From assembly GCF_000526195.1 (NCBI RefSeq), contig NZ_JAFP01000001.1, positions 470,001 to 534,000 of the forward strand: a DNA stretch of 64,000 nt, in the 5' to 3' direction. The DNA is from Hippea sp. KM1 (GTDB lineage Bacteria; Campylobacterota_A; Desulfurellia; Desulfurellales; Hippeaceae). Of this stretch, positions 2,415 to 19,109 are shown in pieces (the first letter of the stretch is position 1; each line of letters opens with the position of its first letter). A model generated the notes under the pieces. The model saw only the letters and a list, made by a program, of their open reading frames with translations, had not been told where the DNA came from and made no database searches. The position numbers and the translations under genes were made by a program.

Positions 2415-2719
2415 TTCTTGAGATGAATTCAGTTTTTATATGTGGATATATTGAGTTAAAAGTTGATATGTGGCTTTTTGCAGTTATGAGCATCAATAGG
2501 GGTGAGTAGTGGATAAATTAAGATATAGAGACATTTATCCTGTATAATTTTTTAGGCCATCTCAAAGAGGAATATTTTAAGCTTTATCCTCACATAAAGC
2601 AGCCTTGATAAGGTGTGCAAAAAGCAAGGTATTTAAATAATCAATCTATAGGTTAGAACAAACTAAGATCCTGTACAGGTCAACTTGAAAATGTCTTTAA
2701 ACATACCTATACTTTCCTT
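2415..2719. other. Intergenic stretch without a supported gene
   Basis: About 300 AT-rich bases between tRNA-Leu and a small membrane ORF. All frames are broken by stops, no RNA gene is recognisable, and no clear promoter or terminator is seen. One plus-strand frame has longish runs interrupted by stops, which may be decayed coding sequence, but I cannot name a family. Confidence 0.4.
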
Positions 2720-2917
2720 ATGGAGCATTTGTTAAAAATGTTTGGGTATTTTATACTTTCCTTCTTTATCTCATACATTGCATTAAGAGCAGGCATGGGC
2801 TTAACAAATGCCATCGTCAAGCCAGATGAGCTTGAGTTGAAGATGCAAAAGATATCATACATCATCATTCCATTTCTAAGCGCCATTTTGAGCGTTTACC
2901 TCTTTTTCAACAGCTGA
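2720..2917 (+). CDS. Small hypothetical membrane protein
   Basis: A 65-codon ORF encoding two hydrophobic segments (residues ~8-26 and ~45-63) separated by a charged linker (KPDELELKMQK), which suggests a two-helix inner-membrane protein. There is no good ribosome-binding site before its ATG. Its 3' end overlaps, on the opposite strand, a phage tail-chaperone fragment. It lies at the edge of a decayed prophage. It could be a genuine small gene, a truncated gene, or a chance ORF. I do not recognise the family. Confidence 0.35.
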   Translation: MEHLLKMFGYFILSFFISYIALRAGMGLTNAIVKPDELELKMQKISYIIIPFLSAILSVYLFFNS

Positions 2918-3004
2918 GTTTTCTCTCTCCAACCTCTCCAACTCTCCACGCCAGAACCCAAACTCATCCAGGCTCATCGAAAGCACCTCGCCCATGCCGA
3001 AGTA
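2876..3004 (-). pseudogene. Phage tail assembly chaperone-like C-terminal fragment
   Basis: In the minus-strand frame just beyond the baseplate J fragment, ~43 codons read YFGMGEVLSMSLDEFGFW and continue as a charged helix to a TAG at 2876-2878. The aromatic-Gly, V-L-x-(M/L)-x-L-(D/S)-E-F-x-F-W pattern resembles the C-terminal part of tail assembly chaperones in Mu/P2-like phages. There is no start codon with a ribosome-binding site, so this is a 5'-truncated relic. It begins immediately after the orphan CRISPR-repeat sequence. The family call is by pattern only. Confidence 0.4.
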
Positions 3005-3357
3005 ACATAAATCCCACGATAGGGTGCTAAAGCCCTTGTCCCTTTTGGTATAACAACATCAAAAGAAAGAGGCTCGCTCACTGAAAATTTGAGAGTCGTA
3101 ATTGCACTTGTGGCTTGAAGTCTCTTTACGCCAAGTAGCTCACCGAGTTTATCTAAGTGCTCCCCTTTTGCATAAGCAAGGAGATTCTGTTTACCTGTAT
3201 AGTTTATGTCGTTTTTTAAAATAGCAACAACATAAGCAACTGTTTCGAGTATAAGTCTTACAGGATCTGCAGGATAAAGCTTCTTGTTGGAAATGGTCTC
3301 GTATATTTTCAGAATCTCGGCCTCGATCTGGGATGTATCAATATTTACAAAATTCAT
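2974..3357 (-). pseudogene. Baseplate J-like protein, N-terminal fragment
   Basis: A 127-codon ORF matching the N-terminal part of phage baseplate J (Mu gp47/P2 J type): an ARLILETVAYV-like helix (here PVRLILETVAYVVAI), LDKLGELLGVKRL, and FDVVIPKGTRA, the conserved P-K-G-T-R at the start of the beta domain. Full members run to ~300-400 residues; this one stops soon after KGTR. The break coincides with a sequence almost identical to the CRISPR repeat (3005-3033), after which a different phage gene continues in another frame. It is a clear truncation, part of a degraded Mu-like prophage. Confidence 0.7.
3005..3033 (-). repeat. Orphan degenerate CRISPR repeat
   Basis: This 29-base segment matches the repeat of the array at 6499-9652 in 24 of 29 positions, in the same orientation. 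It is identical from repeat position 4 to 27 except position 17; the other mismatches are positions 1-3 and 28. It lies ~3.47 kb beyond the leader-distal end of the array, exactly where a baseplate J fragment stops and a tail-chaperone fragment begins. A match this long is far beyond chance. It may be an ancient terminal repeat separated from the array by inserted phage DNA, or repeat sequence captured at a phage-gene junction. Confidence 0.75.
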
Positions 3358-3418
3358 ACAATAATGCTATTTATTGATGCTTGTTTTTCCAATAAAGATG
3401 TGAAATATAACTTTATGG

Positions 3419-3778
3419 CTATTTCAGGTGAGGGTGAAGCTTAAAATATTCTTCTTTGAGATAATCTGGCAAAAGCTCCGACGGATAGGTGCCCTTTTGT
3501 ATCTTATCCAAATGCCACCACCATTTTTTAATATCATCATTCTCAACATATCTCCTATTAAGTTCGGCGATATATTGTTTTAAACCTCTGATGATTTTCT
3601 TATCCAATTTTTTTAAATCTTCTGTGATTGGATAGTGAAATAAGAGTTCTCTCGTTTCCAAAGCGATATAACTCTCATAAAAATTATAAACAGCCGGCCA
3701 ATTTTCCGGCCAATCGAGATAGGCGTCTAATTCCTTTAATAGATTCTGATAACTGCTTTTCTCTCTTTTTTTAACCAT
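3419..3778 (-). CDS. Hypothetical phage-region protein (possible partner of the upstream nuclease domain)
   Basis: A 119-residue, tryptophan-rich soluble protein (DWPENWPAVYNFYESY, IKKWWWHLDKIQKG) of no family I recognise. Its ATG (3776-3778) lies inside the 3' end of the upstream nuclease-like domain, overlapping it by 43 bases, so the two were translationally coupled before the ISL3 insertion. Small proteins directly downstream of phage-borne toxin domains are often immunity or antitoxin proteins. That role is an inference from position only. The frame is intact even though flanking phage genes are broken. Confidence 0.55.
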   Translation of the reverse strand: MVKKREKSSYQNLLKELDAYLDWPENWPAVYNFYESYIALETRELLFHYPITEDLKKLDKKIIRGLKQYIAELNRRYVENDDIKKWWWHLDKIQKGTYPSELLPDYLKEEYFKLHPHLK

Positions 3779-3999
3779 TGAGTATCCTCTGTTTTATACA
3801 TACTATTTATAGACATGTTATCGTCAGAAGTTATCACAAGCACATCTTCTTTAAAAAAAGCAAAATAGTAATTTCCGTCTCGAGCAACTTCAACATACAC
3901 TTTATCCGGTTTTCTTATAATACTATAAGCCTTATCCTTAAACTCTTCAACTGTATTAATTCCGGCAAACTCTTTTTGTTCGAGCACATGTTTTCTAAA
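3736..3999 (-). pseudogene. C-terminal part of Mu gpF-like head protein: nuclease-like domain
   Basis: This is the 3' part of the gene whose 5' part lies at 5490-6470; the two are separated by the ISL3 element. Removing the element and one T8 duplication joins HIQKK directly to FRKHVLEQKEF in the same frame. The tail (HVLEQKEF, then TVEEFKDKAYSIIRKPDKVY and YYFAFFKEDVLVITS) resembles the PBECR group of barnase/EndoU/colicin/RelE-like phage nucleases that occur fused to Mu F proteins. A GTG at 3985-3987 opens an 83-codon ORF, but no convincing ribosome-binding site precedes it. The nuclease assignment is tentative; the gene split is certain. Confidence 0.6.
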
Positions 4000-4007
4000 T
4001 TTTTTTT
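4000..4007. repeat. ISL3 target-site duplication, left copy (T8)
   Basis: Eight T residues flank the left inverted repeat. The same eight T residues follow the right inverted repeat at 5490-5497. An 8-bp AT-rich duplication is the expected ISL3-family signature. Confidence 0.85.
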
Positions 4008-4027
4008 GGCTCTTTCCAAAAATCTAT

Positions 4028-4122
4028 GGGTAATTCAGACTCTGTTGGAGATGTTAAACTATGCAAAGAATAATTGGCAAATTATTCTTTGCATTCTTCT
4101 CTTTAAGAAGTTAGAATTACCC
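4028..4122. repeat. Nested palindromes in the ISL3 5' region
   Basis: A perfect 15-bp inverted repeat, ATGCAAAGAATAATT (4061-4075) against 4080-4094 with a 4-base loop, is enclosed by a second one: GGGTAATTC (4028-4036) against GAATTACCC (4114-4122). The outer arm reuses the inner part of the left terminal repeat. In RNA this would form a long hairpin ahead of the transposase start. A role in limiting transposase expression from read-through transcripts is inferred. Confidence 0.75.
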
Positions 4123-4186
4123 AGAATTATGTTGTTATTGGCTGCATCTGTTGTGTTGCATTCATTTATTACCTTTTTATTGGAGG

Positions 4187-5452
4187 ATGAGCTCTGTGGC
4201 TAATGTTATGCAGGAACTGTTTGAAAAGGCATTGGGTATTGCACCACCCTGGTTTATAGAAAGGATAGAGTTTAGTCAAGATGAGAAAAGATTGGACATA
4301 TACATAAATTTCAAAAGAGGTTCCAAATTCAGCTATTTCGATAATAAAAACAACAAAGAGTTCTCTAATTTAAGCGCTTATGATACTACAACAAAGAAGT
4401 GGAGACATCTGAATTTCTTTGAGCATGAGTGTTATCTTCATGCAAGAATCCCAAGGGTAAAACTGCCGGATGGAACTATAAAAACAATAAAAGCTCCCTG
4501 GGAGGGTGTAAGCAGTGGATTTAGTCTGCTTTTTGAAGCTTTACTTTTGCAGCTATGCTCATCCATGCCTGTTAATCAGGTATCTAAACTCATCAATGTC
4601 CATAATGATAAAATATGGGATATGCTTGATAAATATGTGAATAAAGCAAAAGAATATGAAGATTCCTCCAATATTGATTCTGTAGGTATAGATGAAACAA
4701 GTATAGCCAAGGGACATGAATACATCACCCTGTTTGTGGATTTAAACAAAAGGAGAACACTGTTTGTGGCAGAGGGCAAAGATGCATCAACAGTCAAAGA
4801 GTTTGTAAAAGACTTTAAAGAGCATAAAGCAGAGATAGACAACATTAGAAATGTCAGTTGCGATATGTCGCCTGCATTTATCAAAGGAGTAAGAGAATAC
4901 ATACCCAATGCCGATATTACATTCGATAAATTTCATATCCTTAAGATTATCAATGAGGCAGTGGATAGTGTAAGAAAACAAGAATCCAAAGAAAATAAAC
5001 TGCTGAAAGGAACCAAATATATCTGGCTTAAGAATAAACAGAATCTCACAAGAAAACAGAGAGAGGCTTTGAAAGAATTGACAATATCAAATATGAATCT
5101 GAAAACTATAAGGGCATATAACATAAGACAGTCTTTTCAAGACATCTATAATGCAGAAACAGAAGAAGAGTTTACAGCCTACCTGAAAAAATGGTATTTC
5201 TGGGCAACCCATTCAAGATTAAAACCCATAATAGAGTCTGCAAAAACAATTAAAAAACACTGGAATGGAATCATAAATTGGTTTAGAAGCAGAATCAACA
5301 ATGGAATACTTGAGGGATTAAACTCTGTTATTCAGGCAGCAAAGGCAAAAGCAAGAGGATATAGGACATTTAAAAACTACAGAATTATAGTATACCTTCT
5401 AACAGGCAAACTTGATTTCAGTCTGGTCAACAAGAGTTTGAGGGGGATTTAG
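4187..5452 (+). CDS. ISL3-family transposase
   Basis: About 420 residues with ISL3 hallmarks: N-terminal IAPPWF and RLDIYINFKRGSKF, and the DDE catalytic region with first Asp in SVGIDETSIAKGHEY, second in VSCDMSPAFIKG followed by DITFDKFHILK, and Glu in NNGILEGLNSVIQAAK. The start is uncertain: GGAGG (4182-4186) touches the ATG at 4187, so the GTG at 4196 or ATG at 4208 (MQELFEKALGI) are better spaced. The frame is intact, so the enzyme may be active. It catalyses movement of the surrounding element. Confidence 0.93.
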   Translation: MSSVANVMQELFEKALGIAPPWFIERIEFSQDEKRLDIYINFKRGSKFSYFDNKNNKEFSNLSAYDTTTKKWRHLNFFEHECYLHARIPRVKLPDGTIKTIKAPWEGVSSGFSLLFEALLLQLCSSMPVNQVSKLINVHNDKIWDMLDKYVNKAKEYEDSSNIDSVGIDETSIAKGHEYITLFVDLNKRRTLFVAEGKDASTVKEFVKDFKEHKAEIDNIRNVSCDMSPAFIKGVREYIPNADITFDKFHILKIINEAVDSVRKQESKENKLLKGTKYIWLKNKQNLTRKQREALKELTISNMNLKTIRAYNIRQSFQDIYNAETEEEFTAYLKKWYFWATHSRLKPIIESAKTIKKHWNGIINWFRSRINNGILEGLNSVIQAAKAKARGYRTFKNYRIIVYLLTGKLDFSLVNKSLRGI

Positions 5453-6470
5453 TGTTGTGGGAGTTACCCATAAGAAAGTGGAAAGAGCCTTTTTTTTGGA
5501 TATGATTATCGAGAAAATTTTTGATATGTTTATCTTTTGGTTTTACAGGTGGCCTCGCCCAGACATCTCCAAGATGGGCCTTCACCTTGTTATGTATTTC
5601 ATCATTTGACAGGTTGTTAAACATCTCTTCAAGTTCAAGTTGCTCAGAAGTAATTGGAGCATCAGCAGGCCTACCTACTTTGTATTTTACAGGAGTGCTT
5701 TCAAACTCTGCCGCTACTGTGCACCTGCATAGAGGGTGCATGGGCGGGGTTTTGAGAGGGAAGTTAGATGTTTTGCCTTTATAGTAATTTGTTGCTATAG
5801 GTCTGATATTTGGCAAATCTTCAGGTTTTGAATTTATCACAAGGTCTATTTGTTCTTTCGCAGCCTTTGTCTCAATAATCCTGCCGTCCATACTGCGGCA
5901 AGCTGGGCAGGTCAGTCTGTCATTTGTGGCATCCCATCTAAACCGCTCAACACCTGCTTCAATAAAAGAGTTAATGCGTGCAAAATTTCGCATCGTGTTC
6001 ATTGTGGTATCTATTATTTGCCTTGCTTTTAATTCGCTTTTTTCAGACAGATAACCACCGAACTTATCCAAAAACTCAGCTATCCCTTTCTGACCTTTAC
6101 CAATAGGGTTGCCGTTTTTAAGATAATACTTACTCATCCAGGATAATACCTCTTTTTTTACTCTGGAATCTGCCTGAAAAAACCTTCCAAGATAATAATC
6201 ATTTAAACTATCTACAAACGCAATTGCTTGCTCGTCAGACTGCCGAAAGCTGTATTCCGCATCAAAAGATTTTAATGCATCCTTTTTCTCTTTTTCATAA
6301 AATTTCCGAAATATTTTAAGCAACTCACTCCTCGTCCTGTCATCAAGGGCCGTCTTTTCCTCGATTTTGTATAGTAGATACTTAGCGAATTCATCAAAAA
6401 CAACAAAATTTCTATAAAAACGCAAAACTTCTTTTAAAGCCTCATCTTTTTTTCTATTAAAAAAGCGCAT
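5427..6470 (-). pseudogene. Mu gpF-like (SPP1 gp7) head morphogenesis protein, N-terminal part
   Basis: Residues 1-325 belong to a minor capsid/head-morphogenesis protein of the Mu gpF/SPP1 gp7 type. They show the conserved zinc-like core CPACRSMDGRIIE, then PLKTPPMHPLCRCTVAAEF. After HIQKK the frame runs into the ISL3 element and ends 63 bases inside it, so the last ~21 residues are IS-derived. The original continuation is at 3736-3999. The gene starts only 28 bp from the leader-distal CRISPR repeat. Neighbouring phage genes expected between a head gene and baseplate J are missing, so the prophage has lost most of its body. Confidence 0.85.
5490..5497. repeat. ISL3 target-site duplication, right copy (T8)
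   Basis: Eight T residues directly follow the right inverted repeat of the ISL3 element and match 4000-4007. Confidence 0.85.
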
Positions 6471-6498
6471 AAAAACTTTAATAAGTTCTTTTAAGGTG

Positions 6499-9400
6499 CT
6501 TTAAATCCCACGATTGGGTGCTAAAACTGCGACCCCGCCAGAGGCGGGCAAAGCCACAATCGCCTTTAAATCCCACGATTGGGTGCTAAAACTATCTCGA
6601 GCCGAATTCCGCAAGGATAGTAGGCAGGCTTTAAATCCCACGATTGGGTGCTAAAACAGTGAGTGAGGCGGATAGCCCCGTGTAGCGAAGCGGTCTTTAA
6701 ATCCCACGATTGGGTGCTAAAACGATAGCGCGTGTCCTTGTGTTTTGGTGGGGAGATGACTTTAAATCCCACGATTGGGTGCTAAAACTGCGACCCCGCC
6801 AGAGGCGGGCAAAGCCACAATCGCCTTTAAATCCCACGATTGGGTGCTAAAACTATCTCGAGCCGAATTCCGCAAGGATAGTAGGCAGGCTTTAAATCCC
6901 ACGATTGGGTGCTAAAACAGTGAGTGAGGCGGATAGCCCCGTGTAGCGAAGCGGTCTTTAAATCCCACGATTGGGTGCTAAAACGACTTGGGCGGTCGAT
7001 TTCTTAATTTGCCCGTATTTACTTTAAATCCCACGATTGGGTGCTAAAACCGGCAAGGGCTATGATCTTGTCCATAAACTTGTCCTTTAAATCCCACGAT
7101 TGGGTGCTAAAACAGGATGGGCTGGGTGTAAAGTTTTATGTGAGGTATACTTTAAATCCCACGATTGGGTGCTAAAACTCTCGAATGTTGCATCATAAGC
7201 CTCTCCCCACTTTGCTTTAAATCCCACGATTGGGTGCTAAAACGCAGGACACCATTTTTGATAGCATCCTTGATCGTGTCTTTAAATCCCACGATTGGGT
7301 GCTAAAACCTGGTCGGCTTTTAAAGCCAGATTGACGATAATCGCCTTTAAATCCCACGATTGGGTGCTAAAACATTGCCAGAGATATAAACGCCATCTGC
7401 AGGCTATTCTTTAAATCCCACGATTGGGTGCTAAAACGTCAGGGGCAACTCAATGTCCCCAACCATAAAAGACTTTAAATCCCACGATTGGGTGCTAAAA
7501 CCGCATTTGACAAGGAGCTTTATAAAAAGTGGTCTGCTTTAAATCCCACGATTGGGTGCTAAAACGAGGATTTTCTGATATTCGGCAAACTCTGCGCTGC
7601 ACCTTTAAATCCCACGATTGGGTGCTAAAACGAAACATACGATTTAGATGATTTAAGAAAAGACTCAGCTTTAAATCCCACGATTGGGTGCTAAAACGAA
7701 ACATACGATTTAGATGATTTAAGAAAAGACTCAGCTTTAAATCCCACGATTGGGTGCTAAAACGTCAGAGCAAGGAACGCCTTTGCAGCCTCTTGATCCT
7801 TTAAATCCCACGATTGGGTGCTAAAACGACATACGACCAGGCTGTTTCATACTGCAAAAACACTTTAAATCCCACGATTGGGTGCTAAAACCACAAACTC
7901 GTTGGGATTGTTGAAGTTTAACTCTTCAACTTTAAATCCCACGATTGGGTGCTAAAACCCGCAGTGTTTTGTCCGAGCGCTTCACGACTTTTGTCCTTTA
8001 AATCCCACGATTGGGTGCTAAAACAAGGCACGGGGTAAAAACAAAGACAAAGATAAAGAACTTTAAATCCCACGATTGGGTGCTAAAACCCTAAAATAAC
8101 TTTAAATTAAAGTAAATTCTACGCCCTTTAAATCCCACGATTGGGTGCTAAAACTTACCCCTTTTTCCTTTGAATAGACTATGTCTTTGATCTTTAAATC
8201 CCACGATTGGGTGCTAAAACAGGGACAGGGACTATTCTGTATTGGTTCTTTTTCTTCTTTAAATCCCACGATTGGGTGCTAAAACTTTTTGTGCTAAATT
8301 ATACATAATACCTGTAAGTTCTTTAAATCCCACGATTGGGTGCTAAAACCCGCTTAAGTATTTTGGCGCAAGACAGACGCAAAACTTTAAATCCCACGAT
8401 TGGGTGCTAAAACTCAATGTGGTTATCTTGTAACTTATGTTTGTCCTTCCTTTAAATCCCACGATTGGGTGCTAAAACTAGTTCGCCGATTATTTCAGTT
8501 GCAACATTAATTTCTTTAAATCCCACGATTGGGTGCTAAAACTTATAGTAATGAGGACAAGAGAACTTGCTTGAATACCTTTAAATCCCACGATTGGGTG
8601 CTAAAACGTAGAAAATCTAAACATCAAAGCCATGCAGAGACGCCTTTAAATCCCACGATTGGGTGCTAAAACGACATGTAAACCCAACTCTATCTGTTGC
8701 CACTTTTGACTTTAAATCCCACGATTGGGTGCTAAAACACAGGCCAGAACAGCCCAAAACAAACACTAAGACTGTCTTTAAATCCCACGATTGGGTGCTA
8801 AAACTGCAAGCAATTAAGACTATAGCCATATCTCTTGTTGCTTTAAATCCCACGATTGGGTGCTAAAACTAGGCAAATCCTCTGGGAATACGGCAAAATG
8901 AGCCTCCTTTAAATCCCACGATTGGGTGCTAAAACAGGTCGCCTGGAGCCCAGACATCCTGCCTTTTAGCAACTTTAAATCCCACGATTGGGTGCTAAAA
9001 CAATGACGGCAATTTGCTGTCAAGTGCTGTCAAAGTGCTTTAAATCCCACGATTGGGTGCTAAAACTACTCATTTGCGAACTCAAGCCGTGGGAGCTTCT
9101 TTACTTTAAATCCCACGATTGGGTGCTAAAACCGTAAACGATGGCAGCTGCACCACCAACAAAACCGATCTTTAAATCCCACGATTGGGTGCTAAAACGT
9201 ATATTCCTGTCCTGACCGCTCAGCTGCTTCCTTGCTTTAAATCCCACGATTGGGTGCTAAAACGAAATTTTTAGTTTCTGTCAGATGAAAAGTAAAGTCC
9301 TTTAAATCCCACGATTGGGTGCTAAAACCTCAACCTGCTAATGGCCATAGAGGAGATACAACACACTTTAAATCCCACGATTGGGTGCTAAAACGAACAC

Positions 9401-9652
9401 GATAGTCCTCACTGGTGAATGCGTCCTTACTTTAAATCCCACGATTGGGTGCTAAAACTTTCTTGGCAAGCGCAGTAAGGCTTTTCTTAACCTTCCTTTA
9501 AATCCCACGATTGGGTGCTAAAACTGTAAGCATTGTCCATAATTTGAACGATGCGGTCTCTTTAAATCCCACGATTGGGTGCTAAAACATCCTTCCAATG
9601 ACGCTTTTTGTCTCCTCTGTCTCCTTTAAATCCCACGATTGGGTGCTAAAAC
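6499..9652 (-). CRISPR. Type I-B CRISPR array, 49 repeats / 48 spacers
   Basis: A 29-bp repeat (plus strand begins CTTTAAATCCCACG and ends GGGTGCTAAAAC) occurs 49 times essentially without variation, with 48 spacers of 34-38 bp. The minus-strand form ends ATTTAAAG, which fits the 8-base 5' handle of type I-B crRNA. The cas genes and the leader lie at the high-coordinate end, so transcription is on the minus strand and the oldest spacers are near 6500. Three oldest spacers (6528-6694) recur in the same order at 6789-6955, separated by one different spacer. The spacers at 7632-7668 and 7698-7734 are identical. Several spacers read as open coding sequence, as expected for phage-derived DNA. Confidence 0.98.
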
Positions 9653-9751
9653 CCATCTTCCCGAACAACGAAATTCCTTTTTGCGTAAGGCTTTTTCTAA
9701 AATCAAACTTACAGTTTTGCTTCCGAAAATTCTCCAACCTCAAGTAGTGCA
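9653..9751 (-). promoter_or_regulatory. CRISPR leader region
   Basis: The 99 bp between the cas2 stop codon and the first (youngest) repeat are AT-rich with A/T runs and are the only candidate leader. I see no convincing -35/-10 pair, so the array may be read from the cas operon, from a weak promoter here, or both. Confidence 0.6.
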
Positions 9752-10033
9752 TTAGATAAAATTATCAGTTGGGTCGAAATCCAAACCCACTGTTATTCTA
9801 TCCACATTGCGGGGGTTGTCAATTCTGTAAAATACAATGTAATCCTCTTTGGGGTTTATTATCTTTTCAGATTCCCTCTTTAGCGAGAAAAATTTTGCTT
9901 CGCTCAACTCACCCTCAAAAACCGATTTTTGCGTATGGTGAAGGTACTTTCTGAACAGCTTCATTATTCTATTTAACCTTCTTTGACCTGATTTTTCTAT
10001 AGTCGATATGTCATAAACAGCAACAATGTACAT
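9752..10033 (-). CDS. cas2: CRISPR-associated endoribonuclease Cas2
   Basis: A 93-residue Cas2 with the ferredoxin-like fold pattern. It starts MYIVAVYDIS, where Asp8 is the conserved metal-binding residue, followed by RRLNRIMKLFRKYLHHTQKSVFEG, a hallmark of the family. Cas2 forms the Cas1-Cas2 spacer-integration complex. Its ATG follows the cas1 stop directly (TAGATG), so it was translationally coupled to cas1. With cas1 split by an IS256 element, Cas2 probably has no working partner unless another cas1 exists in the genome, and its expression now depends on read-through of the IS. Confidence 0.95.
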   Translation of the reverse strand: MYIVAVYDISTIEKSGQRRLNRIMKLFRKYLHHTQKSVFEGELSEAKFFSLKRESEKIINPKEDYIVFYRIDNPRNVDRITVGLDFDPTDNFI

Positions 10034-10325
10034 CTACCACCAAATCCTGAAGCTCTTGTAAACCTTCTCTTTTAAAAGGTGCTTTATAAGCTTGTATAGC
10101 TCAAGCCGGATTAACCTCCTATAGCTTACTCTTCTTCTCAATTGTTTATGCAAAATGGTTTTATTTAGCTTGTTTTCTATCTCTTGAACCACTATTTTTC
10201 TGCCCTCTTCCAACAGATACGCAAAATTAAGGCTCTTATCGAAATGCTTTTTACTCAACTTGCCATCATTTAAAAGCTCGAATATCACTCTATCTCCAAA
10301 AATTGGCTTAAAAATCTCTGAAACA
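10034..10325 (-). pseudogene. cas1: cas1, C-terminal fragment
   Basis: This encodes the C-terminal ~97 residues of Cas1: EIFKPIFGDRVIFELL, KKHFDKSLNFAYLLEEGRKI, and the terminal SYRRLIRLELYKLIKHL and FRIWW typical of type I-B Cas1. An ATG inside the IS256 element (10382-10384) abuts the transposase stop (TAGATG) and opens a 116-codon frame that adds ~19 IS-encoded residues. A fusion of this fragment could thus be translated by re-initiation. The helical fragment alone carries none of the full Glu-His-Asp catalytic set and should be inactive. Confidence 0.92.
10318..10325. repeat. IS256 target-site duplication, left copy (CTGAAACA)
   Basis: CTGAAACA directly precedes the left end of the IS256 element and is repeated exactly at its right end (11584-11591). 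The 8-bp length fits the IS256 family. Confidence 0.92.
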
Positions 10326-10384
10326 GGCAATGTCAACTTTTTTGTGTCACCCCTCTTCCTGTTTGGTTCACTTAGTTTCCCCAT

Positions 10385-11488
10385 CTATCCAAAAGCCTCC
10401 ATCAGGTATTCAGAGTATCTGAGCTTTCTTGATGAATACTTCTCATCCTTATCTTTGAAGAAAAGGTAAAGGAACTTTTCAGCACTGTCCTCAGAATGGA
10501 GATAACCCCTAATTCTTAAAGAATCCTTTAATTCCTTGAAACACCTCTCCATCCAGTTTGTTGTTGAAAAGTATACCTTTATCTTTTCATTGAGGTTTGA
10601 GAAGTGTGTATAGTTCTTGACTTTACTTTTTAGGCTGTTTAGGGATTTATAGAGCCTACTCCATTTGTCGATGAACTCATTCATCAAGAGTTCTGCCTCC
10701 TCTTGGGTCTTAGCCTCCATTATCTGGTTTAGCTCTTTCAGCATCTCATCCCAGTGTCTCTTTCTCACCTTGCTTTTTATGTTCTTCTTCAGATGAAACC
10801 AGCATAGCTGATGCTTTGCTTTGGGGAATGCCTCCTCTATTGATCTTGAGAGCCCTTTTAGATCATCGCTGATTATCATTCTGACATTCTTTAGTCCCCT
10901 TGATTTTAGGTCCTCAAATATCTCTCTCCACATCTGTGTATTCTCATTGCCTCCAGGTAGGAAGTATGCAAGTATGTTTCTTCTGCCGTCGTATCTCAAT
11001 CCCAGAACAGCATAAACTGCTTCTTTTTCTACACTGTCCCTCTTCAGAGGCAGGTATGTTGCATCTATGTATAGGACTGGATACTCATCATCCAACCTTC
11101 TGTTTTTGAACTCCTCTATGACCTCTTTTGGTATGTCGGAAATATAGCTTGCAAACTGGGATGATATGGAACATCCAATGAGATTTTCTAAAACCTTGCC
11201 TGCCTTCCTTGATGAGACTCCAGACACGAACATTGCCCTTATTATGTCATCAAGGAGAAACATCACCCTCTTTCTCTCAGGCAATACATCGCTTTTGAAC
11301 TTGCCGTCCCTTGTTCTGGGGATGGAAAGCTCCATCTGACCTAATATTGTTTTTGGTGACCTTGTGTAATATCCATTTGCCCTTGTTGATTTGTTCTCTT
11401 CTAAGTACCTGTCTCTTTCCTCTTTCATGATCCTTTCAATCATTGACTTGAATTCTTCCTTCAATTGTGTAAAAATCAAATCATACAT
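10385..11488 (-). CDS. IS256-family (mutator-type) transposase
   Basis: A 367-residue transposase with the mutator DDE motifs: first Asp in VLYIDATYLP, second in MIISDDLKGL followed by KHQLCWFHLKKNI (the family C-x2-H block), and Glu in STTNWMERCFKELKD. It is slightly shorter than typical ~390-400-residue members but has all three catalytic blocks and an intact frame. A strong ribosome-binding site AAAGGAGG precedes the ATG, and part of it falls inside a nested palindrome (11501-11557). It mobilises the surrounding element. Confidence 0.95.
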   Translation of the reverse strand: MYDLIFTQLKEEFKSMIERIMKEERDRYLEENKSTRANGYYTRSPKTILGQMELSIPRTRDGKFKSDVLPERKRVMFLLDDIIRAMFVSGVSSRKAGKVLENLIGCSISSQFASYISDIPKEVIEEFKNRRLDDEYPVLYIDATYLPLKRDSVEKEAVYAVLGLRYDGRRNILAYFLPGGNENTQMWREIFEDLKSRGLKNVRMIISDDLKGLSRSIEEAFPKAKHQLCWFHLKKNIKSKVRKRHWDEMLKELNQIMEAKTQEEAELLMNEFIDKWSRLYKSLNSLKSKVKNYTHFSNLNEKIKVYFSTTNWMERCFKELKDSLRIRGYLHSEDSAEKFLYLFFKDKDEKYSSRKLRYSEYLMEAFG

Positions 11489-11500
11489 GTGTTTTTCCTC

Positions 11501-11557
11501 CTTTGAAGGGTTAGTGTCAAAGAGGGGTTATAACATATAACCCCTCTCCCTTCAAAG
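11501..11557. repeat. Nested palindrome upstream of the IS256 transposase
   Basis: An outer pair CTTTGAAGGG (11501-11510) and CCCTTCAAAG (11548-11557) encloses an inner perfect 11-bp pair, GAGGGGTTATA (11522-11532) and its complement (11536-11546), with loop ACA. On a minus-strand transcript entering from cas1, the outer stem would cover part of the transposase ribosome-binding site. Such hairpins are a known way for insertion sequences to stay silent under read-through; that role is inferred here. Confidence 0.75.
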
Positions 11558-11578
11558 GGTGACACAAGTAATTTTACA

Positions 11579-12292
11579 CTACCCTGAAACATCCAAAGAT
11601 AGCGAAAATCTCCTAAACCCAGGCTCGTGGAGATAACTTATTGTAGGGTTGAGTTGGGTTTTATAGATTTCTTTTAAGATTTCTGAGTAAATAATGCTAT
11701 TAACGAACGAAATCAAGGCATTCATCATATTATCCGGCGGATTTTTAACCCGCCTTTTGAAGTCTATATCCTGCTCAATTATCTTTTCAAACGTCGAATA
11801 ATACAAATCTTTTGCGTTGCCCTCTATGCCCATGAGTTGCTCAACCGAATCCTGAACAGCCGAGGCTTCGTATAACTGCGTTAACTTTTCAATCTCATCG
11901 CCAAGCTTATGCTTGTACCTTTTTAAGTTTTGAATGCTACCGTAAATAGCGCCTCTAACAAACTCTTTTGCCAAAAGTAATCGCTTGTTTCTATCGAGAT
12001 AGTGCTCAACCTGCCTTACAATAACCTCTCCGGAGTTTAGAAACTCTTTAGGATAGAATGTCCCTGTGTAAAATCCGTAATAGTTGAAAAAATGGACCAT
12101 AATGTTGTTCTGTGACAAAAAGTTTAAAAGTTTTGTGTTTAGGTCTATTTCACCAAATAGGTATATGGAATCTATGTCATTTATCGGCAATGGTATTCTT
12201 TCTCCCTCCTGGGTTTCGAAAAATATCGTGTTGTCCTTTCTTTTTATGCGCCCTGATCTGAAAATATAGTAGTTACGCATAGCAAAACTCAA
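11579..12292 (-). pseudogene. cas1: cas1, N-terminal fragment
   Basis: The N-terminal ~235 residues of Cas1 (type I-B): NYYIFRSGRIKRKDNTIFFE, the glutamate block MGIEGNAKDLYY, the histidine block SYLHEPGFRRFSLSLD, then a stop. The TAG stop comes from the first bases of the IS256 end, one codon after the target duplication. It lacks the C-terminal helical region at 10034-10325, so the integrase should not fold or function. It overlaps the end of cas4 by 20 bases, as in an intact coupled operon. The missing function would be spacer acquisition; interference does not need Cas1. Confidence 0.93.
11584..11591. repeat. IS256 target-site duplication, right copy (CTGAAACA)
   Basis: An exact copy of 10318-10325, directly after the right inverted repeat of the IS256 element. 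Confidence 0.92.
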
Positions 12293-12812
12293 AATAGCTG
12301 CACTTTTTGCAAAGACTTGCGTTTATAGGCTCAGGTGGTGTGGAGTTAGCTACTATCTGTCTTATTTGTCTCAGAATTTCCTCAAGTCTTATTTCGTCTT
12401 CTTCTGTAAGTTCCACTTTTAATGTTTTTCTTAAGAGCGGATAATTTAAAACGCCGCTAATCTGCAAGCCTAACAGCTTGAAGTGATACAGGTAGTACTT
12501 CAGCTGCCAAATATGGGCATCTTCTATCGCCCTTGATTTCTTTACTTCATGGATCAAACCCCTCGTTTTCTCAAAAAAATCTATCTTTATACCTTCAAGC
12601 TCGATCTCCTTCCTCTTCCTTGAGTAAGATGATTCGTGTATAACAGAGCCAATCTGCACAAGTTCAGAAGTATGCTCCATGCCGATCTGCTTGCTAAAAA
12701 GCCACAACTTCCTTTTGCATACAAAAAAGTAATTCACCTGTGTGCCAGTGATTATCGGCGAGCGGTCAAGGGTTAATAAGTTTCTATCAAATGATGTTTG
12801 ACAATTCTTCAT
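12273..12812 (-). CDS. cas4: CRISPR-associated exonuclease Cas4
   Basis: A 179-residue Cas4 of the RecB-like nuclease family. ITGTQVNYFFVCKRKLWLF holds the first Fe-S cysteine, GSVIHE, the KIDFF and HEVKKSR nuclease motifs follow, QLKYYLYHF is the QhxxY-type motif, and the C-terminal CKKCSYFEFCY supplies three more cysteines for a 4Fe-4S cluster. Cas4 trims pre-spacers and helps choose PAMs with Cas1-Cas2. The ATG at 12812 has AGGTG at good spacing and overlaps the end of cas3 by 26 bases. It is intact, but its partner Cas1 is interrupted. Confidence 0.95.
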   Translation of the reverse strand: MKNCQTSFDRNLLTLDRSPIITGTQVNYFFVCKRKLWLFSKQIGMEHTSELVQIGSVIHESSYSRKRKEIELEGIKIDFFEKTRGLIHEVKKSRAIEDAHIWQLKYYLYHFKLLGLQISGVLNYPLLRKTLKVELTEEDEIRLEEILRQIRQIVANSTPPEPINASLCKKCSYFEFCYA

Positions 12813-15033
12813 CTGTTACACCTTTTTCCGGATCGTATCTAAGGTTCACAGTAAACAGCTTTCCTTTCGCTATTTGCTCAGGGGGAGTCTTTACTTTAAA
12901 AAACGGAATACTAACCGTAAATTGGTTTAATTTGTAAAGAGCTAAAATTCTGTCACGATAATCTTTAGACTTATCAAGTGCTGTCTCGGTTAATTTTTCT
13001 ATCAACTCAATATTTTCTTTGTAAACATTTCCAGGAATAGCATTTATATTCATAACATTTCTAAAGAATTTTTGAGCCTCTCTTTTATCTTCGGACTCAA
13101 AACCCAAGTTCAGTAACTCTAAATTTTTCTGAAATTTTCCGTAAAACTCAGTACTTTCTATTCTGCTTAAATCATACACTTCTTCCATAAGGCGCTGCTT
13201 GTCCTGTTCGGTTAAGACCTTGTTATCAAACTCTCTCAAGGCCTCAAGCGTACGTTGTATTATATCCTTGTCATAGATTTTTCCACTGCCAGACGGTTCA
13301 TCAGTGGCTACGATGACATTAGGCTCATCATCCCCATTTATTTTTCTTCCTATCTTCCTGAAAACCCTTCCCATTCTTTGAATTAAGGAATCGAGTGTAG
13401 CAATTTCTGTGAAAAGAATATCATAATCAATATCCAACGATGCCTCCACAATTTGTGTAGATATCCATATGACAGGAATTGAATGATGCGGATATCTTCT
13501 TATTAACATTTCCCTTTTCTGTCTGTCCTTTTGTATAAAAAGCGAGTGTAGTAGTTTCACATTTAAATCGAAATCTTTCTTCAGTTTTTTCAAGTTCTCA
13601 AAGATGCTTTGTGCCTCTTTCACTGTGTTAACCAGTACAAGCACCTTTTTTCCTTTTTTGAATTCCTTTATAATTTGATTCTTCAGCTCACTTATGGGTC
13701 TATTTTCAAGTTTTATTCTGTGTTTTGTCTCTTGGCTCAAAACAGGTGGTAAGATATCAACACCAAATTCCTTTAACTGCTCCATCAAAAAAGGCTGAAC
13801 TGTAGCACTCATGATACAAAACTTCCCGCCAAGCCTCGCTACATCTTTCAAGCCTTTAACTATTATAGCCAATGTGTCGGGCGAATAGCTCTGCGGCTCA
13901 TCTAAAACAACCTTTGAGTAGGCAAGCGTAGCATAGATCTTCTCATAGTTGGGATACTTTAGTGTGGAGGTGAATATCTGATCTGCAGTAGTTACCGTGA
14001 TCGGCATTGAATACTGACGGGTAGCCTCTACACGTGATAGATGCTCCTCCAAAGATAAGGCATCCTCAAATCTCTCTAAGCCTTCGAAACCGTAAAAAAG
14101 TGCGTCGCTGTGAAGCAACCCTATGTGTTCTTTATCAAAAATATCACAAAGCCTCTTATACATTGCATTTACAGAAACCCTTACGGGGAGCGTGTAAAAG
14201 GCTTTGTCCTTTCCTATCCAGTTAATTGCAAATTCTGTTTTTCCCATGCCTGTTGAGGCGATCAGTAAAACATTTTTATCTCTTAATTCACTCGCCTTTT
14301 GCTGAAAGGGTTTTAAGCCTCTAAAATCGGGTTTTCGCGATAGGTAGTCCAAAAGTTTCCCATCCGGGTCCTTTATTCTTTCCTGTTCAACTGGTAGGTG
14401 TGCTGATGCTGAATGATCCAATCTATGCAATAGTCCCTTTAAAAGAATAAAGGTTTTGCATTTTTTAAGTTCTGGAATTTCGTCCCTGTTGTTATAAAAC
14501 TTTTCTATCTTTTTATAAACTATCCTAGCTTTTTCCCTTGGAAGTTCAGGTATTTCTACACCAAGATTCTTCAGCCAACTCAAATATTTAATGTTTTTGC
14601 TTAGGTCGTGCTCTACAACATTCTTATAATCCTCTTCATCAAAATCCAGACTCCTGCTATGGTGAAACAAAACCGAATATAAAACCTTAGCAAATAATTC
14701 TTTGTTGATCGCTTTCCTCGCCTCTGGAGTGTACAAAAAAATCCCCGACAAAAAATTATGGGGTATCTCTCTATCAAGCTCTGTCGGTATTTCATGCTTT
14801 TCCTTCAACAGCCTTTTTATCTTTGCCTGAAAGTGTGAGGATATCTTACCTAAATCATGGAATATACAGGCTATCCTTAAGGCTTCCCAAAAATTGCTCT
14901 CTCTGCCTATCTCTCGCCCGTAGATCTCTTTCAGTCTATTCAGCTCAACGAGAAGGTTTAAAGTATGCTCCTTCAAGGTTTCAGGGCGCGCCTTCTTATT
15001 TTTGTAATAAACTTTCGCATAAAATTCACTCAT
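12787..15033 (-). CDS. cas3: CRISPR-associated helicase/nuclease Cas3 (HD domain N-terminal)
   Basis: About 748 residues. The N-terminal HD nuclease (HTLNLL at ~25, IACIFHDLGKISSHFQ at ~60-70, YSVLFHHSR) is followed by a superfamily 2 helicase: Walker A STGMGKTEF, box II VVLDEPQS, SATVQ (motif III), and STQIVEASLDIDYD with QRMGRVFRK (motifs V-VI). Cas3 is recruited by Cascade to degrade target DNA. ATG at 15033 (MSEFYAK) is preferred over upstream ATG/GTG codons because AGGTGATG lies just before it. It overlaps cas5 by 8 bases. All motifs are intact, so interference should be possible. Confidence 0.96.
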   Translation of the reverse strand: MSEFYAKVYYKNKKARPETLKEHTLNLLVELNRLKEIYGREIGRESNFWEALRIACIFHDLGKISSHFQAKIKRLLKEKHEIPTELDREIPHNFLSGIFLYTPEARKAINKELFAKVLYSVLFHHSRSLDFDEEDYKNVVEHDLSKNIKYLSWLKNLGVEIPELPREKARIVYKKIEKFYNNRDEIPELKKCKTFILLKGLLHRLDHSASAHLPVEQERIKDPDGKLLDYLSRKPDFRGLKPFQQKASELRDKNVLLIASTGMGKTEFAINWIGKDKAFYTLPVRVSVNAMYKRLCDIFDKEHIGLLHSDALFYGFEGLERFEDALSLEEHLSRVEATRQYSMPITVTTADQIFTSTLKYPNYEKIYATLAYSKVVLDEPQSYSPDTLAIIVKGLKDVARLGGKFCIMSATVQPFLMEQLKEFGVDILPPVLSQETKHRIKLENRPISELKNQIIKEFKKGKKVLVLVNTVKEAQSIFENLKKLKKDFDLNVKLLHSLFIQKDRQKREMLIRRYPHHSIPVIWISTQIVEASLDIDYDILFTEIATLDSLIQRMGRVFRKIGRKINGDDEPNVIVATDEPSGSGKIYDKDIIQRTLEALREFDNKVLTEQDKQRLMEEVYDLSRIESTEFYGKFQKNLELLNLGFESEDKREAQKFFRNVMNINAIPGNVYKENIELIEKLTETALDKSKDYRDRILALYKLNQFTVSIPFFKVKTPPEQIAKGKLFTVNLRYDPEKGVTDEELSNII

Positions 15034-15745
15034 CAACATCACCTATTAAATCAATCAAACGCCCGTCTTGTTCGTCAAACAGAAACTCTCCCTCTTCGAT
15101 CAATCCGTTGTCTATGTAGACTACATCCCTCTTTTCAAAATACCTGACCCCCAATTTATTTAGAAGATCCCCATCGTATTTAAAACTCATCCTGTAATTT
15201 ATGCCCCTGAGCCTGACTTTATTTGCGGTTTCTTTGTTTAAATAGATTCCGTAGTCTATTATATGTTCGTCTTCAGAGAAATCATGCAGTACGGGCTCAA
15301 TAAAATCTAAATAGTCTATTCGGAGCAAATCTTCTCTTCTTCCCAAGGATGGATACTCTATCTTTAGCAGATTTTCCTTGAATTTTTCAAGATACCCAAC
15401 TTCCGCCTCCAGGTAAATGGTCAGATTTACATCGTAAACATTCGCCACATAAGTTGGAGACTTATTTAAGGTTTTATTAAAATCTTCAAGTATTGGATAG
15501 CCTTTCTCTTTTGCTTTGCCTTTCCTGTCGAACTTTATAATCTTTTGCAGGTCTTGAACAACACTATTAAAACTTCCCTGTATACTCATAGCCATCGGTA
15601 TATATCTATCGGCCCTCAATACCGTATGAAACCAACCCCTTATTGTCGACAATGGTGGCAAGGGATACGTGTCCCAGTAGTTGAAGCACATGGGCTTTCT
15701 ATAATTTGCAAAAACCTGATAAGCCTTGATCTTTAGCAGTTTCAT
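15026..15745 (-). CDS. cas5: Cascade subunit Cas5 (type I-B)
   Basis: A 239-residue Cas5 RAMP protein. It begins MKLLKIKAYQVFANYRKPMC and has the family signature PLPPLSTIRGWFHTVL, the loop region used in crRNA handle recognition. Cas5 caps the 5' handle of the crRNA in Cascade. It sits between cas7 and cas3 with short overlap to cas3, the usual type I-B (Tneap/Cst) order. The length is normal and no damage is visible. Confidence 0.92.
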   Translation of the reverse strand: MKLLKIKAYQVFANYRKPMCFNYWDTYPLPPLSTIRGWFHTVLRADRYIPMAMSIQGSFNSVVQDLQKIIKFDRKGKAKEKGYPILEDFNKTLNKSPTYVANVYDVNLTIYLEAEVGYLEKFKENLLKIEYPSLGRREDLLRIDYLDFIEPVLHDFSEDEHIIDYGIYLNKETANKVRLRGINYRMSFKYDGDLLNKLGVRYFEKRDVVYIDNGLIEEGEFLFDEQDGRLIDLIGDVDE

Positions 15746-15779
15746 TTTCTCACACCGTAGTAATCTCTGATTTGTTGCT

Positions 15780-16673
15780 TTATGGTCTCAAAAAGTCGTT
15801 TATGTTGTGATAATTGCCCTCACTAACAAGTTTTCTGATTTCTTCCTCATTTTCCCAAAACCCCTTCACTATACCTATATGGGTTCTGTCTTTAATATTT
15901 TCCCCTCCAAAAGACATCTCAAGAGCAGACTCTATAATGGGTGTCTCTAAAATATGTTTCCTTGTTTCCCTGTTATATCTTACCCTTAGTCTCCCCATGA
16001 AAAACGGATTCTTTACATTATAAACACCGCCAATTGCAAACAATGGGTTTAAATTTTCTGTTCTTCCTTTTATGTTTCTGTTTAAAACCTTTAAAACATC
16101 CAGAACCATGTTTACCCTTCTTGCCTTTTCTTCTGGCTCAATAGAGATGACATCATTTGGGTCTTCCCCTACTCTGTCCAGTTCTATTGTTACAGTGTAT
16201 GAATAAAGAGACAAATGATGCTCAAACTGAAATGGATTTGGATTCGCGCCCGTTCTTTGAGCAAAGTTGAGGTTTGTTCCAAATTCAATGTCGGAAAGCA
16301 TAGGTTCAAGAGAAATAGCCGGCGTTATTCTAACAACCGCTGGTCTTGTAAGCGAACTCTTGCTTTTTGCCGTTTTCATATATCCAAAGAGATCAGCCTC
16401 TATGTAATCCCTTATATTTGCCTCGGATTTGAATTGAACCACATCTTGCTCAGCCGTTAACGGATCTTCTCTATCAGAGTCTATACCAAATTGTTCCTTA
16501 AGCATTCTATAAACATCGTATCTCAAGGCCTGTCTGGATTCATAGGATAGAAATTCACCGGATCTTGAAAGCTTTTTAAGCTCAGAAATATTGCCCACAC
16601 CTTCACCATAATTTAGACTCATCGCCTCAAAGATCAAAGAAACAGTTAGACCCTGCGGTTTTAAATTAATCAT
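15780..16673 (-). CDS. cas7: Cascade backbone subunit Cas7 (Cst2/DevR family)
   Basis: About 297 residues of the DevR/Cst2 Cas7 family: GLTVSLIFEAMSLNYGEGVGN, SRQALRYDVYRML, and the later RTGANPNPFQFEHHLSLYSY and NVKNPFFMGRLRV. Several Cas7 copies form the Cascade filament that binds the crRNA. I place the start at 16673 (MINLKPQGL), because AAGGAGG sits 9 bases upstream inside the end of cas8. An upstream ATG at 16694 would add seven arginine-rich residues. It overlaps cas8 by 8 bases. Confidence 0.92.
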   Translation of the reverse strand: MINLKPQGLTVSLIFEAMSLNYGEGVGNISELKKLSRSGEFLSYESRQALRYDVYRMLKEQFGIDSDREDPLTAEQDVVQFKSEANIRDYIEADLFGYMKTAKSKSSLTRPAVVRITPAISLEPMLSDIEFGTNLNFAQRTGANPNPFQFEHHLSLYSYTVTIELDRVGEDPNDVISIEPEEKARRVNMVLDVLKVLNRNIKGRTENLNPLFAIGGVYNVKNPFFMGRLRVRYNRETRKHILETPIIESALEMSFGGENIKDRTHIGIVKGFWENEEEIRKLVSEGNYHNINDFLRP

Positions 16674-18390
16674 TCTCCTCAACCTCCTTTTCATTTGCTA
16701 TCTGATTTGAGTAGCTTTCACCCAAAAGGCCGTTTAGAAAACTATATCCTAAAGCATAAAAGGTTTCCTTATCTTGAAGTGCCTTGACAAAAGATGATGG
16801 GATTTCCCTTCCATAGGCCATATATGTTCTAATTAAAACATCCATAAACTGTCTTGTATCTCCAATCCTCAAAGAATTTAAAAGCTTATATGAAACAGAA
16901 GAAATCTTATTTTCCGCATTTCTTGATTTAAGCAAACTTGCCATCTCCTCTCCTTTCTTGTATACATGCCACATCTCTTTTTCTGAAGTGTTCATTTTGG
17001 CACCTCCGTCTATTTTTGTAGTAAAATTAAAAACCAGTCTATTTAAGATCTGAAGTTGGTATGCATTTATTTTTGCTTCGTAATTCCTTGAATTGTTTCG
17101 AGCCGCTATATACAATTTTGTAAGTTTATTTAGGTAATCAAAGTAAAATTTACCTTCCAACATCAAATGCATCACCTCAGGCAACACAGAAATCTTTACA
17201 TCCTTTATCTTGTAGTAGCACCGTGAGAGCGCCTTAAGATCGTCTTTGTTTTTAGAATCCCTTAAGAATTTGGCTTTTTCTGTTGATAGATTAAACGAGT
17301 AAACCTTTGGAGTTGTATCGCTTGAAAGATCGAGCTCCATCACGGCAATGTTTTGTAGCGTATAAATCGCTTCCCTGTATGAGCTTTCCAAAACTATTTG
17401 TGTAAAGAAATCCAAAAGGGCGTTTTGGGAAACATCCATTGTCAAAACATTCTTTAGCAACAGATTCTCTTTCACCAAGTCATATATGGAACTATCGGAA
17501 TTCACAAAATAAAAGATCGTTTTGTTGTCTCTCCTTACAGGCGTTAACCCTGCAAAATACGAAAAGTAGGTAATTTCACAAATATCACATAAGGGAAGCT
17601 TTGGAGCAAAGTTCCATACAAAATTTATAGAATCGGGATTGAGGCCATAAAACTTTGAAATACCGGTATCAAAAAGGGTATTGCTTTTTGCTTTTCTCTC
17701 CATGCAAAAAATACAACGAAGTTCAGGATCTCGTTTTGTTTTATTCTTGCTCAGCGGCTCCTCAAAATCTTTATAAAATTTATCAAATCGATTTTTATTT
17801 ACGGATCTGTTTAGAAAGCTCTTTTGACCGTATATTTTTCTTAAATAAATCTGAACATCGCTCTCCCACAGTTCCCCTTTGTTTTCTTTCATAATTTCAA
17901 TGGCCTTTATAAGTGTCGATACAAGAACAGAAGGGTCATTTTTGATCTCGTTCTTCGTCGGCACTTTCCCAATTCTATTTTTTAAGAAGCTGAATCCGTT
18001 TAATATTTTTTTCAACCTATCCAACAATTCATTGGGCAGCTTAGTTGCTATTTCTTCGCCTTTCAATTTCTCATTAAAGTATTTCTTATTCAACCTGCCC
18101 AGATCTTCCTTATTGTTTAGAGCTTTTAGGTCTTCTATGTACTCGTTAAATAGTTTCAATAAACTCTCGTATCTCCCGTACTGCTCAAAAGCATAATCAA
18201 AAAACCTCTTTGCAAACCCTTCAAATATCCTTCTATCGAACTCTATATAATTATCACCAAAATATAAAACATCTTTATCCTTCGAAAGCAATCTATCTTC
18301 CTTCAACTCCCACAGATGAGAATTTATATTTAGAAAGCCCACTATTCCCGCATTGTAAAGCCAATCACCAATGTAAACCCTCTCTTTCAC
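16666..18390 (-). CDS. cas8b: Cascade large subunit Cas8b1 (Cst1 type)
   Basis: A 574-residue Cst1-type large subunit. It begins MKERVYIGDWLYNAGIVGFL, as in the Cst1 family, and carries a zinc-finger-like pair in the middle: CIFCMER (~229) and LCDICEITYFSYFAG (~275). The large subunit recognises the PAM and positions the Cascade complex. Subtype I-B (Tneap/Hmari-like, Cas8b1) follows from the combination of this protein with the Cst2-type Cas7. It overlaps cas6 by four bases (ATGA). Confidence 0.88.
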   Translation of the reverse strand: MKERVYIGDWLYNAGIVGFLNINSHLWELKEDRLLSKDKDVLYFGDNYIEFDRRIFEGFAKRFFDYAFEQYGRYESLLKLFNEYIEDLKALNNKEDLGRLNKKYFNEKLKGEEIATKLPNELLDRLKKILNGFSFLKNRIGKVPTKNEIKNDPSVLVSTLIKAIEIMKENKGELWESDVQIYLRKIYGQKSFLNRSVNKNRFDKFYKDFEEPLSKNKTKRDPELRCIFCMERKAKSNTLFDTGISKFYGLNPDSINFVWNFAPKLPLCDICEITYFSYFAGLTPVRRDNKTIFYFVNSDSSIYDLVKENLLLKNVLTMDVSQNALLDFFTQIVLESSYREAIYTLQNIAVMELDLSSDTTPKVYSFNLSTEKAKFLRDSKNKDDLKALSRCYYKIKDVKISVLPEVMHLMLEGKFYFDYLNKLTKLYIAARNNSRNYEAKINAYQLQILNRLVFNFTTKIDGGAKMNTSEKEMWHVYKKGEEMASLLKSRNAENKISSVSYKLLNSLRIGDTRQFMDVLIRTYMAYGREIPSSFVKALQDKETFYALGYSFLNGLLGESYSNQIANEKEVEEND

Positions 18391-19109
18391 CCCATCACCT
18401 CCAGCATGCCAAAACCCTGTGAACGCTTTGCGCCGATACCGGCATGGTATATAAGCTCCAATATGGGTATAGGCGCATTGATTGTTATTAGCCCCTTATT
18501 TGCTATCTCACCGCCATACAGACTTGCTATGCTATATGTCAGATTGTGATCCACAACATTAAATTCATCTTTTTGAAGGTCATATTTTAAGAACTCCCGC
18601 GCCATGCTTTTTACATTAAAAAAGAGGTTTTCAAAGAACATTGGATCTTTAGCCTTTAAAAAGCCCTTCCCCTTTTTATCTTCTATGTTTCTGACAAGAA
18701 TCGGCGATAGCGTCTTGAAGGTTATGGTGGTGTATGTGATGCTTCTTGTGTTAACATAAAAAATTTTTGATACGGACAGTTCGTTGTTAAAGTAACTCAA
18801 GCTCTTGTTTTTTGACATCTCTTTAATACCGTTGTACAAGGCAATTAAAGTTGCTGCATCAAAGGACGAGAAGTAAAATACAACATCTTGCGACTGTAGG
18901 TAGATTTTGCCCTTCTCCTTCTTTTGGGACGGTTTAAAGCTTAACGAGAATGTGAAAGGCTTTTGTTTGTTCTGCTTTGAATAGTACTGCTCAAACAACT
19001 CCTCATCCGCTGTTTTTAGGGCTTCTTTGATAAACGATAGTGCATGTCTGCGATAATCCGAAGGCAAAAACTCCCCAGGATTTAGTCTAAACCTCACACC
19101 AAACCGCAT
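18387..19109 (-). CDS. cas6: CRISPR RNA endoribonuclease Cas6
   Basis: A 240-residue Cas6. The N-terminal LPSDYRRHALSFIKEAL fits the family's LP-x-x-Y pattern (His22 lies in the region of the usual catalytic histidine, not verified), and the C-terminal glycine-rich loop GIGAKRSQGFGMLEV is diagnostic. Cas6 cuts the array transcript within each repeat, leaving the 8-base handle ATTTAAAG. It is the first cas gene and lies only 20 bases downstream of a diguanylate cyclase gene on the same strand, so the cas promoter may lie inside or upstream of that gene. Confidence 0.94.
   Translation of the reverse strand: MRFGVRFRLNPGEFLPSDYRRHALSFIKEALKTADEELFEQYYSKQNKQKPFTFSLSFKPSQKKEKGKIYLQSQDVVFYFSSFDAATLIALYNGIKEMSKNKSLSYFNNELSVSKIFYVNTRSITYTTITFKTLSPILVRNIEDKKGKGFLKAKDPMFFENLFFNVKSMAREFLKYDLQKDEFNVVDHNLTYSIASLYGGEIANKGLITINAPIPILELIYHAGIGAKRSQGFGMLEVMG

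Follow-up and report, generated by a model that had tools for sequence, protein, structure and literature searches.

The window analyzed here, a 64,000-nt stretch of the Hippea sp. KM1 genome (contig NZ_JAFP01000001.1, positions 470,001 to 534,000), contains a CRISPR array and an adjacent cas operon encoding Cas8b1/Cst1, Cas7/Cst2, Cas5b, Cas3, Cas4, Cas1b, Cas2, and Cas6, which identifies the system as type I-B (Table 1). The operon is transcribed towards the array, and the low-coordinate end of the array is therefore its old end. Beyond that end, the minus strand reads, in order, the last array repeat, a phage F gene that is truncated at its 5' end and split by an ISL3 element, a gene for a small phage protein of unknown function, a baseplate J gene fragment, and a lone degenerate repeat. 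This order matches that of a phage locus (L025) from a metagenome-assembled genome of the Aquificaceae, which encodes portal, F, the small protein, gp25, and J, except that gp25 is missing from the window.

The modal length of the 48 spacers is 36 nt. Spacers s1–s3 are repeated as s5–s7 in a 261-bp tandem duplication (6528–6955) right beside the junction with F, and the identity of s18 and s19 (7632–7734) is a second sign of recombination in the array. Repeats of the same family, with two mismatches in the core, were found in two Desulfurella-like genomes (G016 and G018), while no related array was found in the other eight genomes of the same genus or the seven of the same family that were searched, and no sister strain carrying the array was found among 24 relatives. 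At the leader side, the sequence (9653–9751) is unlike the leaders of G016 and G018, which have ACTATACAAAT...AATGG ahead of the first repeat; the leader of this array may have been lost. The cas1 gene is split by an IS256-family transposase gene (10385–11488) into an N-terminal part (11579–12292) and a C-terminal part (10034–10384), and with cas1 interrupted in this way spacer acquisition is probably dead.

Table 1. Coordinates of the features at the array and at its old end, as positions in the window.
Feature	Position	Strand	Remarks
Inverted scrap of the 3' end of the small phage protein gene	2559..2604	+	85% identical to 3417–3462 of the minus strand
59 bp separating the lone repeat from chromosomal sequence (part of the 'tail chaperone' frame)	2946..3004	.	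No family or phage match
Lone degenerate CRISPR repeat	3005..3033	-	24/29, 24/26 in the core; outer three bases altered as in G018
36 nt of J touching the lone repeat, candidate for the original terminal spacer and now running on into phage DNA	3034..3069	-	Modal spacer length; preceded by CCT; putative
Baseplate J gene, 5' part (codons 1–108)	3034..3357	-	PF04865, E 7e-9; phrog_6, E 2e-25; J profile lost after codon 108
Small phage protein	3419..3778	-	Lies between F and J in the colinear L025 too
F (minor head) gene, 3' part	3736..4007	-	Continues L025 F across the IS
ISL3-family IS within F	4008..5489	+	DDE_Tnp_ISL3, E 4e-76
F (minor head) gene, 5' part, first codons missing	5490..6498	-	Phage_Mu_F PF04233, E 3e-10; 45% identical to L025 F
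CRISPR array (49 identical 29-bp repeats, 48 spacers of 34–38 nt)	6499..9652	-	
Type I-B cas operon: cas2, cas1 (split), cas4, cas3, cas5b, cas7, cas8b1, cas6	9752..19109	-	NCBIfam

The lone repeat at 3005–3033 (ACATAAATCCCACGATAGGGTGCTAAAGC; GCTTTAGCACCCTATCGTGGGATTTATGT in the crRNA sense, on the minus strand) shares 24 of its 29 bases with the array repeat (CTTTAAATCCCACGATTGGGTGCTAAAAC), lies on the same strand as the array, and is separated from it by 3,465 bp. Our searches of the window and the genome thus bear out the sequence-only reading, which had noticed a 29-base segment with 24 matches in the same orientation 3.47 kb past the array. Only two mismatches fall within the 26-base core (24/26), and the runner-up site for the array repeat in the window reaches 18/29. 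When the 1,742,311-bp genome was searched with the core, this was the sole match outside the array at up to three mismatches; the reversed-pattern control gave none. Based on composition, matches of at least 24/29 are expected 1.7e-5 times per window and 4.5e-4 times per genome, and core matches of at least 24/26 are expected 2e-6 times per genome. The chance of a repeat-like match on the right strand within 30 bp of the break in J is about 8e-9. Given the uniqueness of the match and these low expectations, the segment is a CRISPR repeat and not a chance resemblance.

The minus-strand frame 3357–2974 begins as baseplate J (PF04865, phrog_6), with a J part 61% identical to vent phage contigs, and stays open to residue 127. 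The similarity to J ends at KGTR/A, in agreement with the earlier statement that J stops after KGTRA. On a J profile made from 33 distinct sequences and covering the 12 residues after GTR, the window scores -13.2 bits, a value that 32% of random 12-mers from the window equal or exceed, while family members typically score about +20 bits, most of them between 14 and 30. By this profile, J homology ends at codon 108/109 (3034/3033), that is, at the repeat edge to within one codon. Some BLAST and HMM alignments extend to residues 119–123, because T119 coincides with a conserved threonine; there is no profile signal there.

A reading in which a stretch of J codons resembles the repeat by chance, or is the origin of the repeat, had also been put forward. 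The open frame and the position of T119 are in its favor. The search of homologous J genes for a repeat-like stretch, as had been suggested, covered 44 J loci gathered from IMG/VR, GTDB genomes, and one Hippea relative, and the stretch was absent from all of them. The best match to the array repeat anywhere in the 41 J loci of the larger IMG/VR search was 15–19/29. In addition, the residues encoded by the repeat carry no J-family signal, the chance figures given above are very low, and the repeat family is common to Desulfurella-like genomes. Based on the J loci and the profile test, we rejected a J-codon origin, which is now extremely improbable.

On the far side of the lone repeat, the sequence-only reading had placed a phage tail-chaperone fragment. 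This identity found no support: the frame has no Pfam match, a single insignificant PHROG match (E 0.07, unknown function), and no tblastn match in phages or IMG/VR. Most of the frame overlies a chromosomal segment, from 2682 to about 2945, that has a counterpart of 81% identity beside rpsF in another Hippea genome (G002). A small membrane-protein gene (2720–2917, plus strand) lies within this segment, and its flanks are included in the identity to G002. Synteny with a near Hippea relative (G007) ends at the 3' end of a tRNA-Leu gene (2330–2415), and the region that follows appears to be an insertion hot spot housing phage scraps and the CRISPR locus. The inverted scrap at 2559–2604 indicates that phage debris reached the locus more than once, which weakens any single-event story.

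On the side of the array, the phage DNA likewise ends in a gene that breaks off at a repeat (F at 6498), a junction that was absent from the first account of the locus. Followed upstream, the reading frame of F stays open as far as the last array repeat (6499), which is complete, and meets a stop inside that repeat. The first ~18 residues of F align weakly with L025 F, and for this reason the break in F is less exactly placed than that in J. The ISL3 element is flanked by a target duplication (TTTTTTTT) at 4000–4007 and 5490–5497, its ends having been read by eye. With J cut at the lone repeat and F open to the array, the segment 3034–6498 is phage DNA lying between two repeats of the same orientation; it measures 3,465 bp, of which 1,975 bp remain once the IS and one target copy are subtracted. 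The best explanation is that the array now holds a piece of a Mu/P2-like phage, from F to J, between its terminal repeat and the next repeat. No second J gene was found in this genome, nor was an L025-type portal, the latter in a search that had no positive control and is hence weak.

The lone repeat sits on the old, cas-distal side, as cas2 (9752 onwards) is at the opposite end of the array. In the crRNA sense, its 3' end is GGGATTTA followed by TGT, versus GGGATTTAAAG in the array repeat. In G018, the terminal repeat has GGGATTTA followed by GGA at this end, so that the identical three positions are altered, with an unrelated trailer, while the terminal repeat of the G016 array is complete and the altered end is thus not universal in the repeat family. 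Substitutions at the 3' end that loosen the dyad symmetry are typical of terminal repeats (PMC8047081). The lone copy resembles these in being distal in the array, on the same strand, and altered at its 3' end, with a weakened dyad symmetry (the 5-bp outer stem of its hairpin is lost and the inner stem is shorter), and because its outermost three bases are altered as in G018 it is best read as a terminal repeat. It differs from them in its position: a terminal repeat is expected one spacer length from the next repeat, whereas 3.47 kb of phage and IS DNA intervene here. We therefore call it displaced, a term that makes a claim about its origin and does not describe a normal array end. Overall, the displaced repeat is very probably genuine, with phage DNA lodged in the array, and is best taken as the leader-distal terminal repeat; the terminal status itself is supported but not proved.

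The altered hairpin also bears on the possibility that the lone repeat is a solitary repeat unit carried by the phage, akin to the RNA anti-CRISPRs known as Racr, and possibly the site at which phage and array recombined. Host-like solitary repeats occur commonly in viruses, and a role in integration into arrays has been suggested for them (PMC8616872, PMC10651486); the lone copy resembles such units in being a single repeat beside phage genes. It differs from them in interrupting J and in being absent from J-bearing relatives (the 44 J loci). Moreover, the outer stem is lost, no sigma-70-like promoter site was found in the 250 bp upstream (3034–3283, minus strand), and an IMG/VR search gave no exact match to the core pattern. 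We regard this origin as quite improbable. Similarly, the antitoxin RNA gene creA of CreTA is a degenerate repeat-like element near a type I-B array (PMC8501985), but the lone copy has no second repeat-like unit nearby (best 13/29), and its 5' handle is degraded, with ATTTAAAG appearing as ATTTATGT; no toxin gene was noticed either.

A further feature of the J junction emerged from the spacers. The spacer at 7114–7149 agrees at 32 of 36 positions with a protospacer that lies in a J-bearing Hippea phage contig (L027, from genome G005), within the gene for reverse transcriptase. This is the only identifiable protospacer of the array, no further convincing one having been found in the 602 kb of G005 contigs, L027 included, and CCA stands 5' of it. 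In J, CCT stands exactly 36 nt inward from the lone repeat; the reference PAM for this comparison, CCA, comes from that one protospacer. The chance of CC at a 36-nt offset is 3%, or 8–9% if lengths of 35–37 are allowed. The J end can thus be read as repeat, candidate spacer, possible PAM, and continuing phage DNA, which is the form expected from recombination between a terminal spacer and its protospacer.

Phage DNA flanked by two repeats, the one on the array side being complete, could also be a giant spacer, a fragment of ~2 kb integrated by Cas1–Cas2. The Cas1–Cas2 complex sets a fixed spacer length, and all 48 of the 48 spacers here are 34–38 nt; CCT at 36 nt would moreover be a coincidence. 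We consider a giant spacer very improbable and, like a solitary phage repeat, less likely than the mechanism that we prefer.

Our preferred route, held with moderate confidence, is that phage DNA recombined with the array at a spacer and its protospacer and later decayed. This phage would have supplied the oldest spacer or spacers, at least one of them from J (about codons 97–108), and homologous recombination between a spacer and the matching phage DNA during an infection would have brought phage sequence into the array. Either crossovers occurred at two spacers, one matching F and one matching J, with replacement of the units between them, or a single crossover occurred at the J spacer and the remaining phage was subsequently lost. 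The insert would have decayed afterwards, as gp25 is absent and ISL3 has inserted. In this way, two options that the sequence-only reading had kept apart, phage DNA landing within a once-longer array and phage–array recombination fusing the pieces, are both supported and become one event.

This mechanism is favored by the unique repeat match in the same orientation, the loss of J signal at the repeat, the colinear L025 phage, the results of the second-J and portal searches, and the recombination of the array near the phage end (s1–s3 and s5–s7). On the J side, phage homology starts no more than one codon from the edge of the repeat; on the F side, the frame is open to the repeat and the break is not placed to the base. 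Against it, the PAM is based on one protospacer, the uninterrupted DNA is not seen in any close phage relative, and the inverted scrap suggests a possibly messier history. Recombination over 36 bp of homology is also inefficient in many bacteria. It should be noted that the PAM side of the F end is gone, and this end may have arisen at a second spacer or by a later deletion. In the two-spacer version, put forward only tentatively and by itself unlikely, the host would have captured phage DNA through double recombination, at two spacers against one phage, with array units swapped for the 2-kb stretch between the protospacers.

Alternatively, phage DNA may have entered with no role for spacer homology, either by end joining into a broken array or by prophage insertion at a repeat and large deletions that ended near repeats by chance; the lone repeat would still be terminal. 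The F boundary, which is not assignable to a protospacer, and the scrap at 2559–2604, as a trace of other illegitimate events at the locus, are consistent with such an entry. In Haloferax, type I-B self-targeting activates microhomology end joining (PMC7521656), and prophage integration into Streptococcus pyogenes CRISPR loci, likewise phage DNA within an array and flanked by repeats, has been reported, judging by the title of Varble et al. 2020 as cited in PMC9071438. In the window, both ends are truncated structural genes and not attachment sites, and only ~2 kb of phage DNA is left. The S. pyogenes elements are reportedly whole prophages placed by an integrase. Homology-free entry would also have to accommodate the loss of J homology at the repeat edge within one codon, and it leaves the PAM-at-36 coincidence with no explanation; we judge it somewhat unlikely.

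The closest known phenomena are already established. Recombination between a spacer and its target is documented in staphylococci (Varble et al. 2019, as described in PMC8616872 and PMC9071438), and the likeness lies in a spacer and its target forming the point at which phage DNA and a CRISPR locus are joined. In the staphylococcal case as described there, the phage gains and moves the CRISPR locus, whereas here phage DNA appears to have been left in the array of the host, a type I-B thermophile, and we infer the mechanism from the junctions alone. Spacer–target recombination has mainly been described as a means by which phages acquire CRISPR loci. A natural case on the host side, in a type I-B array, would mean that arrays are open to disruption by the phages that they remember and, if double recombination was involved, that multi-spacer immunity to one phage is a route to lost memories and gained phage genes. 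The signature would be searchable: phage genes that break off at the edge of a repeat and have a PAM one spacer length inward from the break. The locus also indicates that the ends which software assigns to arrays can be false, the true terminal repeat possibly lying kilobases off.

Finally, the region of L027 that contains the protospacer (3794–6523) resembles, by eye, a diversity-generating retroelement, with a possible target protein (3794–4876), an accessory-like small ORF (4906–5238), and the reverse transcriptase gene (5669–6523) that the window spacer targets.
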